DNA of 64,000 bases. Source: Streptomyces cadmiisoli. GTDB taxonomy: Bacteria > Actinomycetota > Actinomycetes > Streptomycetales > Streptomycetaceae. The translations under genes and the position numbers were made by a program. Location of the stretch: contig NZ_CP030073.1 of assembly GCF_003261055.1 (NCBI RefSeq), positions 3,348,001 through 3,412,000 on the forward strand, written 5' to 3'. Of this stretch, positions 14,701-47,835 are shown piece by piece. Every line of letters starts with the position of its first letter. The first letter of the stretch is position 1. The notes beneath the pieces were generated by a model. It was not told the origin of the DNA. It saw only the letters and a program-made list of their open reading frames with translations, and did not search any database.

Positions 14701-15834
14701 TCAGCTGCTGCGCCGCGTCACGAACTCCGCGAGCGCGAGCAGGCCGCCGGCCGCCTCCGGGTCCGGGATCGCCCGGGACAGTTCGTGCATCGCCCGTGCC
14801 ATCCGGTCCGACGCCTGGGCCTGCGCCCAGTCGCGTCCGCCGGCCCGCTCCACGGCCAGCACGGTCGGCTCCAGATCCCCGCCGTCGTACGGGGCCTCGT
14901 ACAGCTCGGCGAGTTCGACGGCGGCCGGTGTCCCCGAGGTCAGCGCGGCGACCACCGGCAACGATTTCTTGCGGGCGGCGAGGTCCGCGCCGGCCGGTTT
15001 GCCGGTGCGGCTCGGGTCGCCCCATATGCCGATGACGTCGTCGATGAGCTGGAAGGCCAGCCCGGCCTCACGGCCGAACGCGTCCACCGCCTCCACATCG
15101 GCCGCGGACGCCCCGGCGTACAGCGCGCCCACGGCGCAGGCGCACCCCAGCAGCGCGCCCGTCTTGGCCTCGGCCATGGCGAGCACCTGGTCGAGCGTGA
15201 CGTCCGCGGGGCCGCGGCGCTCCATCGCCGTGTCCACCTGCTGGCCCTCGCACAGTTCGACGACGCAGGCGGCGAGCCGGACCGCCGCCGCGCCGGCCGC
15301 CGGGTGCGGATCCTGCGCGAGCAGGCGCTGGGCGAGCGCCTGGAGGGCGTCCCCGGCCAGGATGGCGTCCGGGACGCCGAACACCGTCCACGCGGTGGAC
15401 CGGTGCCGGCGGGTGGTGTCCCGGTCCATCACGTCGTCGTGCAGCAGGGTGAAGTTGTGGACCAGCTCCACCGCCACGGCCGCCCGGACGGCCGCCGCCC
15501 TGGCCCCGGGCCCGCCGAGCGCGGCGGCGGTGGTCAGCACCAGGGCGGGGCGGATCGCCTTGCCCGCGTTGCCCGCCGCGGGTGTGCCGTCGGCGTGCTC
15601 CCAGCCGAAGTGGTAGCGCGCGACCCGGCGCATGCCGTCGGGCAGCGACTCGATCGCGGCGCGCAGCTCGGGGTCGACCGACGCCCGGGTGCGCTCCAGA
15701 ATCACCCCGGCCTCGGGGCCGTCGAGCGGCAGCGGCCCGCTGTCCGTGTCGGTGGCGATGGAATGCCGCCCTTCGAGCGTCCCGACCGGACGCCGCTCGG
15801 CGTCCGTCAGTGACTGGGTGATGGACTCGGTCAT
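14701..15834 (-). CDS. Polyprenyl (isoprenyl) diphosphate synthase, likely encapsulin cargo
   Basis: 377 aa from ATG 15834. Trans-isoprenyl diphosphate synthase: GKAIRP (91-96), first aspartate-rich motif DDVMD (133-137), second DDVIGIWGD (265-273). It condenses isopentenyl diphosphate with an allylic diphosphate; chain length is not predictable here. The first ~45 residues (SLTDAERRPVGTLEGRHS ... LPLDGPEAG) are low-complexity and not part of the catalytic fold, as expected for a cargo-targeting tail. It lies 118 bp downstream of the family 2B encapsulin gene, same strand. Encapsulation is inference from this arrangement. Confidence 0.9.
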   Translation of the reverse strand: MTESITQSLTDAERRPVGTLEGRHSIATDTDSGPLPLDGPEAGVILERTRASVDPELRAAIESLPDGMRRVARYHFGWEHADGTPAAGNAGKAIRPALVLTTAAALGGPGARAAAVRAAVAVELVHNFTLLHDDVMDRDTTRRHRSTAWTVFGVPDAILAGDALQALAQRLLAQDPHPAAGAAAVRLAACVVELCEGQQVDTAMERRGPADVTLDQVLAMAEAKTGALLGCACAVGALYAGASAADVEAVDAFGREAGLAFQLIDDVIGIWGDPSRTGKPAGADLAARKKSLPVVAALTSGTPAAVELAELYEAPYDGGDLEPTVLAVERAGGRDWAQAQASDRMARAMHELSRAIPDPEAAGGLLALAEFVTRRSS

Positions 15835-15952
15835 GGGATCGGGGTCCCCCCTCGGAGAGTCGGCGGACGGTGGCGCTTCCGCTCCGGTCGGGCGCGTACC
15901 CCGAGGTGTACCCGCCCGGACGGGCGGGGACACGACGTGCCTTCCGGCCAGG

Positions 15953-17359
15953 TCACCGCCAGCGGCCGATCTCGACGTTCTCCAGCACGCCGAGCGCGTC
16001 CGGGACGAGGACCGCGGCCGAGTAGTAGGCCGTCACCAGGTACTTGATGATGGCCTGTTCGTTGATGCCCATGAACCGCACGGACAGACTCGGCTCGATC
16101 TCGTCCGGCAGCCCGGACTGCCGCAGACCGATGACGCCCTGCTCGGCCTCGCCCAGACGCATCGCGATGATGGAGGTCGTACGGGCCTCGGTGACCGGGA
16201 TCTTGTTGCACGGGTAGATGGGGACGCCGCGCCAGGTGGGGATGCGGTTGCCGCCGACGTCGATCGTCTCCGGCACCAGCCCCCGCTTGTTGAGTTCGCG
16301 GCCGAACGCGGCGATCGCACGCGGGTGGGCGAGGAACATCTTGGTGCCGCGGCGCCGGCTGAGCAGCTCGTCCATGTCGTCCGGGCCGGGCACGCCGTCG
16401 TGCGGCTGGATCCGCTGGTCGTACTCGCAGTTGGTCAGCAGGCCGAACTCGCGGTTGTTGACCAGCTCGTGCTCCTGGCGCTCCTTCAGCGCCTCGACGG
16501 TGAGCCGGAGTTGCTGCTCGGTCTGGTTCATCGGCTGGTTGTAGAGGTCGGCGACACGCGAATGGATGCGCAGCACGGTCTGGGCGACGCTCAGTTCGTA
16601 CTCACGGGGGCGGGCCTCGTAGTCCACGAAGGTGTGCGGGATGTCGGGCTCGCCGGAGTGGCCGGCCGCGAGGTCGATCGCCTTCTCGCCGTATTTGTTG
16701 GTGCGCTGCTGCGGGATCGCCCGGAGCTGTTCGAGGTGCTCGCGCAGCGTGTCGGAGCGCTCCGCGATCTGCTCGGCATCCCGCCGGGACAGGACGAGCA
16801 CGGTGCAGGGGGTGATGGCGCGGGCCGTGAACTCCCAGATGGCGTCCGGGTCGAGCAGGGCCTGGTCGCCGAGGTAGGCGCCGTCGGCGAGGACCCCGAG
16901 GCTCTCGTCGCTGCCGTACGGGCCGGTGCCGATCTTCTCCACCCTGCCGTGCGCCAGCAGATAGACCTCGTCCGCCTGGTTGCCGAAGTCGGCGATCACC
17001 TCACCCGCGGCGATCTCGCGCTGCTCGCAGCGCTGGGCCAGTTCGGCCAGAACCTCCTCGTCCTCGTACGACCGCAGCGCCGGCAGCTCGCCCAGCTCCG
17101 CGGGGATGACCTCGACCCGGTCGCCGGTCTTCACGAAGGTGATGCGTCCGTCGCCCACCGCGTAACTGAGCCGCCGGTTCACGCGGTACGTGCCGCCCTG
17201 GACGTCCGTCCACGGCAGCATGCGCAGCAGCCAGCGTGAGCTGATCTCCTGCATCTGGGGTACGGACTTGGTCGTGGTGGCCAGGTTCCGCGCGGCCGCC
17301 GTGCCGAGGCTCTGCTGCGGCTTGGTCTGCTCCGCACGGACCTCTTCGCCTACCGACAT
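15953..17359 (-). CDS. Family 2B encapsulin shell protein with cNMP-binding domain
   Basis: 468 aa, ATG 17359. An N-terminal arm ([19 protein letters not shown]) leads into HK97-like shell sequence, which is interrupted at about residues 90-215 by a cyclic-nucleotide-binding domain ([25 protein letters not shown] ... YLGDQALLD). The HK97-like fold then resumes ([61 protein letters not shown]). Older annotations call it Crp/Fnr regulator, but there is no helix-turn-helix. Family 2B shells assemble into nanocompartments and are paired with prenyl-transferring or terpene enzymes, as here. The ligand of the cNMP domain is unknown. Confidence 0.9.
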
Positions 17360-17627
17360 AAGGAATTGCCCTCCCGGTCATGCCCTGGCCGCCTGTGCGC
17401 CGGGCACCGATCTCCGCGAGCAAAGCCTTCCATCACGCACAGTGCTGGTGCTATTACCCGAAAGAGCGGGAATGGATCAGGAGCCGTTGGGCACGAACGC
17501 GGTTTTCGTCCAGTGGTGCGCGGCGCCCGCGCGCCTGACCGATTCGGCTCGCACGCTGCGCGAACCAGTGTCCCCGGCGATCCGGCCCCCCGGGCGGGTG
17601 CCGCCACGCCCGGGCGACAATGGCCGG

Positions 17628-45160: not shown

Positions 45161-46534
45161 TCACCTCCGCACCGGCCTGAGCAGCAGTTCGTGCGGGCGG
45201 AGCGTGATGCCCACACGGGTCGTGTCATCGGACCCGGGCACCTGCTCGAAGCGGTACGCGGTCGCCACCGCCGCCGTGATCAGTGAGAGCTGCGCCATCG
45301 AGAAGTGGTCACTCGGGCACTTGCGGTTGCCCACGCTGAACGGGCTCATGGCGTATTTCGGTACGTCCTTGGCACGTTCCGGAAGCCACCGGTCGGGATC
45401 GAACTCCAGGTTGTCCGCGTACGAACGCGCATCGCGCTGGATCGCATACGGGCTGTACACGATGTCCGCCCCGGCCGGAATGCGATAGCCGCCGAGTTCC
45501 GTGTCGGTGACCGCCCGCCGCGTCAGTATCCATACGGCCGGGCGCAAACGCATCGCCTCGACGACGACATTGTTGGTGTGGGTGAGCTTGCGGACGTCCT
45601 CGAATGCGACGGGCCGCCCACCGGTTACCGATTCAACTTCGTCCCGGACCCTGTCCGCGTGTTCCGGATGTTCGGCGAGCACCTGGAGCAGCCACATGAT
45701 CGTGGAAGCCACGGTTTCGCTCCCGGGAGTGAGTATCGCGACGACCTGGTCGTGGATCTCCTGTTCACCGATCGGGTCCCCATTCTCGTCCTCGGCCTCC
45801 AGCAACGCCGTCAGCAAATCGTCCGGCTTTTGACCGGACGCCCGGCGCTCGGCCACGATCTCGTCGACCAGGAGATGCAAATCGGCCAGCGCCCGGTTGA
45901 ATTCCCGGTTGGCCGGAAGCGGCAGCCGGTACAGCGGTCCGAGCGGTACGACCATGCGCCGGTACATACCGCGGAACACGGTGGCGAGCGCGACGCACAG
46001 CCGCTCCGCCCGCTCGTCCATGTACTCGCCGCGCAGCAGGCAGCGGGCCGCGATGCGCACGGCGACCCGGAAGGACTCGGAGGTGCACTCGATCGTCTCG
46101 CCGGGCTTCCAGCGCTCGGCCAGCGCGTGCGCCTCCTCCTCCATGATCGGGCCGTACGCCGGGATGGCGTCGAGCCGGAAGGCGGGCTGGATGGTGCGCC
46201 GCTGGCGGCGGTGGCGCGGGCCGTTCGCGGTGGCCACGCCCTCCTTGCCGAGCAGCCCCTCCAGGGACTCCCACAGCGGGCCGTCGATCTTGTAGTCGGG
46301 GCTCAGCGCGAGGGCTCCGGTGAGCGCCGGGGTGGTGACCGCGTACACCGTCTTCGGGCCGAGTTTCAGCCGGACGACATCGCCGTGCTCGCGCAGCCCG
46401 GACATGAAGGCCAACGGATCACGGACCAGCTTGAGGCCGTGCCCGAGGACCGGGACCCGACCGCCCGCGAGGGGCGGTACACGCAGTTCCGAAGCCGGTG
46501 CCGGGGCTTCGGGCTTGACAGACTCGACGGTCAT
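45161..46534 (-). CDS. cyp170A1: Cytochrome P450 CYP170A (epi-isozizaene to albaflavenone)
   Basis: 457 aa. Heme loop [13 protein letters not shown] with the thiolate cysteine, I-helix [13 protein letters not shown] and K-helix EAMRLRP. CYP170A1 oxidises epi-isozizaene in two steps to the antibiotic albaflavenone; the S. coelicolor enzyme also has a moonlighting farnesene synthase activity. Start overlaps the eizA stop (ATGA). Converges with nrdS. Confidence 0.94.
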
Positions 46535-47616
46535 TTCTCACCTGCCGTTTCGTTGTTGACGTACGGGGGCGTGGACCGGTCGTCCCAGCTGTCGACCGTG
46601 TAGCGGCCGGACTCGTGGTGGAACCAGTAGACCGAGCTGAACCAGTTGCGCATATTCGCGAGGCAGGCCCGGACGGCAACACTCAATTCCTTGCCGTCCG
46701 GCGTTCCGTCGTCGAGGCCGTCGGCGAACCGCAAGGCCTTCTCTTCGACCACGACGAATTCGGTGATGCAGCCGTCGACACGCCGCCGGACTTCCGCGAC
46801 CGCCTCTTCCAGCGTCAGCCCCTCATGGGTGATGAGGCTGATTCCGAGATTGTGGACGTCATCGCCCGCGATTTCCTTGGGAAGTGAACACAGGTCGTTG
46901 TACCAGGCGGCGAATTCCTGACTCAGCAGCGCCGCCCTTCGATATGCCGGATGTTTCCGTACGGCGTCCGGGAGTTCCCGTCCGGCGCTCGGCTCCAACA
47001 GGTCGGTCCAGATCCAGTGCGCAAAGGTGAGCCGCCGCAGCGCCAGATATTCCTGGACCGGGGGAATCACCCCCTCGGTACGGTTGCGGAACTCGCGGTC
47101 GTAGGCCTCGATCACTTCGTGGAAGTGCCGGGCGAAGCGTTCGTTCCAGGTTCGGGGCAGGAACGCGTACAAGCGCAGCACACTGTCCGCGAAACCCGCG
47201 ACCAGGGGATCCTCGTGGTGCAGATGGTGCCGAGGAGAGTCGAGTGCCTCGTGCAACCGCGTCCTCAACCGGCGCCATGCCGCCGGCCGGCGGTGGACGA
47301 CGTCTCGGTCGTGACGGTCGTCCCAGACGAAGAACCACGCGCTGTAGTCCGTTATCGCCTGGAGCACCTCGTCCGGGGCACCGAGGTAGTACCCCGCCAT
47401 CAGATCCGTGTAGCACAGGCCGTCGGCATATTCCTCGACCTTGTCGGCCGGCATGAGCCGCTTTTCCAGGAGCCAGGCCCGGGTCTTCTCCTGGAGCCTG
47501 GGCCAATACGGGTGCAATTGCCTGGGAAACGCCGCCTCGATCACCGGAAGGGAGAGCGACGGTGGTATGGCGATCGCTGTCGCGGTCGATGTGGTGCTGT
47601 GTGGGAAAGCAGGCAC
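46531..47616 (-). CDS. eizA: epi-Isozizaene synthase (sesquiterpene cyclase)
   Basis: 361 aa from GTG 47616 (RBS AGAGGGG), the same length as the S. coelicolor enzyme. Metal motif DDRHD at 99-103 and NDLCSLPKE near 240-248 chelate the three Mg2+ ions that ionise farnesyl diphosphate. It cyclises FPP to epi-isozizaene in the cytosol and hands it to the P450 encoded by the overlapping downstream gene. Confidence 0.97.
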
Positions 47617-47835
47617 GAACAAACCCCTCTCAGCCGCCAGTTGCGCACACCCCTCCCGCCGTGCCGGGCGTGCGCCGTTGCGTATCTCCGCACTTCCCAT
47701 TCAGCACCACAACTGACCGATCTGGGAACGGATTTGCTTCATTCACTACCCCACAGTGCTGAGAATCCCCTCTTGCCTGACCGGTTTTGGATCACTAGGG
47801 GAGCGCATCCGATCGAACGTGCGACGGACACACGA

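Follow-up and report, generated by a model that had tools for sequence, protein, structure and literature searches.

A single-shell Family 2B encapsulin locus of the eshB type with a putative prenyl diphosphate synthase cargo in Streptomyces cadmiisoli

Family 2B encapsulin shells encoded beside a polyprenyl transferase form a catalogued operon type. A 2021 survey lists 900 such operons, 888 of them in Actinobacteria (PMC8346489), and a second study of that year names polyprenyl diphosphate synthase as the commonest Family 2b neighbour (eLife, PMC8049743). The survey proposes that disordered termini serve in cargo loading, and its passages on polyprenyl-transferase cargo describe 50–100 disordered residues and no motif (PMC8346489). 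In Streptomyces coelicolor, SCO5249 is named eshB and described as a putative cyclic nucleotide-binding protein; its promoter is up-regulated in development, and AtrA possibly targets the gene. SCO5250, cited among isoprenoid-pathway genes, rose 4.4-fold on glucose in one data set, and eshA, the eshB paralogue, sits in the 2-methylisoborneol operon of S. venezuelae (PMC3878966, PMC6428758, PMC7494193, PMC13170358, PMC3610822, PMC8229669). A literature search, with bioRxiv outside its scope, returned no report on the loading of polyprenyl transferases into shells.

The window analyzed here is a 64,000-nucleotide stretch of the S. cadmiisoli genome (NZ_CP030073.1, positions 3,348,001 to 3,412,000). 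The two open reading frames of the pair were confirmed at the coordinates and on the strand given in the first-pass annotation (Table 1). The shell gene lies directly upstream of the synthase gene, with 118 nt between them. A profile search of the source genome (10.24 Mb, two contigs) gave two matches above the Family 2B shell cut-off and revealed no second shell gene within 10 kb of the window shell. Since the two shells are ∼4.5 Mb apart, the window locus is a single-shell system rather than a two-component one. The other shell gene (L002) adjoins a terpene cyclase, which scored 424 bits against the Family 2 terpene-cyclase cargo model (cut-off 400).

Table 1. Coordinates of the features discussed, in positions of the window
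Feature	Position	Strand	Basis
Short-chain prenyl diphosphate synthase gene, putative cargo	14701..15834	minus	ATG start, 377 aa, ORF confirmed
Disordered synthase tail, residues 1–38	15721..15834	minus	pLDDT <50; poorly conserved in relatives
Family 2B encapsulin shell gene	15953..17359	minus	ATG start, 468 aa, ORF confirmed
cNMP-like domain in shell, residues 114–201	16757..17020	minus	PF00027, 55.6 bits
Conserved shell N-arm, residues 17–32	17264..17311	minus	Alignment of 22 Family 2B shells
Conserved upstream block TGATCCATTCCCGCTCTTTCGGGTAATAGCACCA, putatively promoter-like	17446..17479	minus	Upstream alignment, 83 loci; 120 nt before shell ATG
eizA	46534..47700		G000:C1:3394534-3395700

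The upstream protein belongs to Family 2B, as had been claimed. It scored 770 bits against the NCBIfam model encap_f2b (NF041163, equivalog cut-off 400), and an SrpI-like domain (PF19307) at residues 216–466 (456 bits, 2.5e-137) identifies, by sequence, an HK97-type capsid part. The cNMP_binding domain (PF00027) sits between the N-arm and this C-terminal capsid part, which is the Family 2B layout. Pfam and NCBIfam were queried with the protein minus Met1; residue numbers given here are those of the full-length protein. Besides these two domains, the Pfam search returned nothing at E ≤ 0.001, and no DNA-binding or helix-turn-helix domain was found; the protein thus lacks the DNA-binding domain of a Crp/Fnr transcription factor, in agreement with the earlier reading.

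In a phmmer search of the PDB, residues 7–467 aligned with 9bhu (654 bits), whose title names it a Family 2B encapsulin shell of Streptomyces griseus, and solved Family 2B shells were the closest matches. An AlphaFold model of the shell built from 22 sequences was poor (mean pLDDT 52.7). Foldseek returned 9bhu as the top match of this model at a TM of only 0.27, so that this match was driven by sequence. The HK97 fold of the shell is predicted from homology to the solved shells. Within the N-arm, S17, L18, T20, A22, A23, R24, L26, T28, T29, T30 and K31 did not vary across an alignment of 22 Family 2B shells.

The downstream protein is a prenyl diphosphate synthase, as the first-pass annotation had it. 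A polyprenyl_synt domain (PF00348) covers residues 89–313, and the protein scored 487 bits against the cargo model f2_encap_cargo4 (NF041169, cut-off 450), so that both the cargo model and the adjoining shell place it in this cargo class. The first Asp-rich motif is DDVMD at residue 133 and the second is DDVIG at residue 265. The AlphaFold model (mean pLDDT 87.7) has a confident helix from residue 40; its top fold match was 3nf2, and archaeal GGPP synthases were among the best. In this enzyme class, product chain length follows from the residue before DDxxD and from insertions in the motif. Here a Phe precedes DDxxD by five residues, and the motif carries no insertion, a combination that reads as C20 under this rule. 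The product is probably C20 (GGPP) and the enzyme a dimer. Because the score against the IdsB GGPP-synthase model (354 bits) was below the equivalog cut-off of 475, the C20 product remains a prediction. Shell-linked synthases differ from a shell-free paralogue at 21 positions, most of which are also kept in synthase-like proteins with no visible shell; these positions are therefore marks of the subfamily, and they were rejected as candidates for a shell interface.

The genomic position of the pair was compared across the best-scoring 80 of 545 related stretches, which are not a random sample. In 78 of them the synthase gene directly follows a shell gene on the same strand, and at the other two (L086, L109) the match lay at a contig edge, so that the pairing goes beyond chance. 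A shell likewise adjoined the synthase at each of the 30 loci with the highest synthase scores in the genus. Some Family 2B shell was present in 240 of the 246 genomes of the genus, and a synthase partner over the cut-off in 186, i.e., in about three quarters of the sampled Streptomyces species (the 186, like the 109 eizA-like matches given below, is a program tally, and the genome tables give best places only). Upstream of the shell lie, in order, genes that we take to encode a sigma factor, an RsbW-like protein, a UBP-type zinc finger protein, an NhaP-like antiporter and a D-cysteine desulfhydrase-like protein. These neighbors were kept in 69, 70, 70, 70 and 71 of the 80 related loci, respectively, and the genes past the synthase varied. 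The locus would thus occupy a core-chromosome position and not a natural-product cluster. A relaxed core pattern of the upstream block, TGATCCATTCCCGCTC...GTAAT, was found in 57 of 83 loci, at 94–145 nt before the shell ATG.

We read these data, with a probability of about 0.7, as an EshB-type, two-gene, single-shell operon whose C20-type synthase is probably enclosed and loaded without its tail; encapsulation is likely, and the synthase is a putative cargo. In this operon (i) the shell protein would assemble into an HK97-type cage, with the cNMP-like domain placed in the E-loop; (ii) the synthase, probably a C20-making dimer, would be packed inside; (iii) the inserted domain would not respond to cyclic nucleotides, and the pore, if gated at all, would be gated sterically or by another ligand; and (iv) packing would not require the disordered tail, as this gene pair is widespread without one. 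Docking by the folded domain of the synthase, or co-assembly of the two proteins from what would be one transcript, appears the more likely route. The long tail would then be a later Streptomyces addition, an age read from its distribution among the loci compared.

The synthase might instead be a metabolic partner and not a cargo; in that case, history and co-regulation would keep the genes together, and the shell would hold other content or act outside. Shell and synthase can indeed be separated: an EshB-type shell at L043 had no synthase within 1.5 kb downstream, and at L025 a full-length shell stands beside a synthase whose first Asp-rich motif reads DGVLD, i.e., is lost, so that the enzyme is probably inactive. 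In other genera, no shell was seen in 13 of 45 synthase rows (∼1.5 kb upstream examined). The other 32 rows had an adjoining shell even though these synthases are ∼50–57% identical to that of the window, and at such distance history alone is a poor explanation for adjacency. One of these loci, L231, carries two synthase-like ORFs downstream of its shell. The same alternative could draw on the distribution of an LGTxAAR-type motif, which was present as SGLGTSAARLGLTSL or GPTGLGTSAARIGLTTTRR in two of the five terpene cyclases that adjoin Family 2B shells (ORFs in L026 and L022) and in none of the 120 synthase N-terminal regions (duplicates and the paralogue L008 included). Taken with the adjacency in distant genera, we consider it unlikely that the synthase is only a metabolic partner.

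If the synthase is enclosed, as we favor, the role of its tail becomes the next point. The first-pass annotation had proposed a disordered N-terminal tail of ∼45 residues acting as a targeting signal. The disorder held, and the model shortens the tail to ∼38 residues. Such a stretch fits the proposal that disordered termini load cargo (PMC8346489), and the notion of a targeting peptide combined with a sealed prenyl-diphosphate compartment, gated through the cNMP domain by a cyclic-nucleotide-like ligand, can also point to the PF00027 fold in the shell. We measured the room available for a tail in the best-scoring related loci, with lengths taken as upper bounds (first in-frame ATG, GTG or TTG lying no more than 30 nt ahead of the stop codon of the shell; synthases with the same core were removed beforehand). 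Shell-adjacent Streptomyces synthases made up 124 rows: 101 in a DDVMD clade, which includes the window, 20 in a DDVID clade and three in neither. The DDVMD clade had room for 20–274 residues (median 63), with ≤20 in only 1 of 101 rows. In the DDVID clade, the median was 14 and the room was ≤20 residues in 15 of the 20 rows, L032, L033, L056, L060 and L075 being above this length. The upper bounds of the three remaining rows were 26, 14 and 85. No C-terminal extension making up for the missing tail was found in 19 DDVID loci.

Other genera gave a similar result. After removal of the second L231 row, 31 shell-adjacent loci remained, and 26 of them had room for ≤20 residues (the exceptions being L215, L231, L232, L238 and L240); the shell stop was often only ∼40–60 nt before the first helix of the synthase. 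A disordered N-terminal domain of 50–100 residues is therefore not class-defining. Three short-tailed synthases scored 489–500 bits on the cargo model. A shell-free, IdsB-like paralogue (L157–L186), with no shell in the 30 loci examined, carries an N-terminal extension of 18–38 residues; a TRGETVPTVP-like motif was seen in this extension in 24 of the 30 loci. Since the tail is missing in much of the class and an extension is present in a paralogue that does not adjoin a shell, the tail is a weak candidate for a general loading signal, contrary to the earlier proposal.

The tails themselves are poorly conserved. Within the tailed clade, the folded part of the synthase was 85% identical (median) and the tails 37%, although this exceeds the 26% of shuffled tails (300 pairs, distinct tails), so that some weak constraint remains. 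Among 64 distinct long tails, M-x-E-F, M-T-E or E-x-T-E at the start, and P-A-G, exceeded shuffles; the excess at the start may partly reflect a ribosome-binding site ahead of a second ATG. A loose ERRxPI-like pattern occurred in 39 of 73 longer N-terminal regions, an uncontrolled count. The ∼10 residues that tail-less forms still have may contain a signal, or a loading signal may be used by the tailed species only. The shell–synthase pair would be older than the tail, which would have arisen in one Streptomyces clade, and this argues for docking by the folded synthase or for co-assembly.

The inserted domain was then the other half of the targeting-and-gating account. Residue 175 of the shell, which by eye aligns with the Arg that contacts the phosphate in E. 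coli CRP, was Trp in each of the 154 Family 2B shell rows of the alignment, i.e., 143 distinct shells once duplicates are removed; clade-wise shell counts refer to the 154 rows. The window shell thus has W175 in place of the Arg of a functional cyclic-nucleotide-binding domain. Of the 143 distinct shells, 85 have Asp and 58 have Glu at residue 165, the canonical Glu position. In line with this, a lack of cyclic-nucleotide binding is reported for the inserted domains of Family 2B (S. griseus shell study, as cited in the discussion of PMC12407261). The reported lack of binding and the Trp at the Arg position speak against the cyclic-nucleotide gate of the first-pass annotation, and any gate would be steric or answer to a ligand other than a cyclic nucleotide. 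With both of its halves weighed, the account of a targeting tail and a cyclic-nucleotide-like gate appears distinctly improbable.

Loading without a tail, as in our preferred reading, may be only one of the routes used by this shell family. The LGTSAARxxLT(T/S) stretches of the cyclases mentioned above resemble the N-arm of the shell itself. For geosmin-synthase-like cyclases, the 2021 survey gives the consensus GPTGLGTSAAR and regards it as a possible targeting motif (PMC8346489). The geosmin-synthase-like frame of the source genome (L012) had no match to the LGTxAAR pattern, only a GLGTS stretch. It is possible that some cyclases copy the shell arm as a simple loading principle, which would not apply to the window synthase. 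Tentatively, and at somewhat less than even odds, we suggest that polyprenyl-transferase cargo of Family 2B loads without a tail and that some cyclases mimic the N-arm, giving two loading principles for one shell family.

The sesquiterpene cyclase gene eizA, placed by the first-pass annotation at 30 kb and found ∼29 kb from the shell gene, was proposed to use the synthase product, and the two are spaced at ∼24–37 kb in the listed genomes that have both on one contig (compared by eye), but this is highly improbable, because 85 of the 186 synthase genomes have no eizA-like match, so that eizA is not an obligate partner, and because the cyclase would require a C15 substrate whereas the predicted product is C20. 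An eizA-like match (E ≤ 1e-90) was found in 109 of the 246 genomes, 101 of which also had a synthase over the cut-off (counted by eye, with a best E <1e-134 taken as over the synthase cut-off).

The tailed, tail-less, synthase-free and decayed-synthase versions amount to a natural deletion series of one operon, which turns the loading question for polyprenyl-transferase cargo into a simple co-purification test set. As an operon, the window locus is of a standard, catalogued type.

When compared with known systems, the locus matches the operons of the 2021 surveys: a shell with a cNMP domain and an adjoining polyprenyl transferase, almost all in Actinobacteria, and the NCBIfam names agree (PMC8346489, PMC8049743). 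The first-pass annotation had taken the pair to be undescribed. It is an ordinary Family 2B shell/polyprenyl-transferase pair of a named operon type, with an NCBI model for each protein, and eshB is an existing name for SCO5249. Unlike the 50–100 disordered residues of the survey, the window tail has 38, and many shell-adjacent relatives have room for ≤20 (PMC8346489). The shell shares near full-length homology with those of S. griseus (9bhu, 654 bits) and S. lydicus (9bix, 620 bits; 9bje, 610 bits), but the window locus has one shell gene and S. lydicus has two. The N-terminus MSVG(E/D)E (residues 1–6) was seen in every tailed-clade shell whose N-terminus was present (79 of 79) and in 5 of 6 unclassed ones. 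It was not seen in any of 11 other Family 2B shells, in any of 4 DDVID-clade shells or in the single shell without a synthase; two truncated DDVID shells start VGEEVR. The synthase has the same fold as the IdsB-like polyprenyl synthetase 3nf2 of S. coelicolor (43% identity). However, 3nf2 fits the shell-free paralogue of the source genome far better than the synthase (685 vs. 245 bits), so that it is not the structure of the shell-linked enzyme. The S. coelicolor genes eshB (SCO5249) and SCO5250 are, judged by the kind of gene, of the same type and have adjacent numbers. Disruption of eshB reportedly leaves antibiotic production unchanged. We assume synteny of the window pair with SCO5249–SCO5250; on this assumption, the window shell is probably the orthologue of EshB, and the window pair that of SCO5249–SCO5250.
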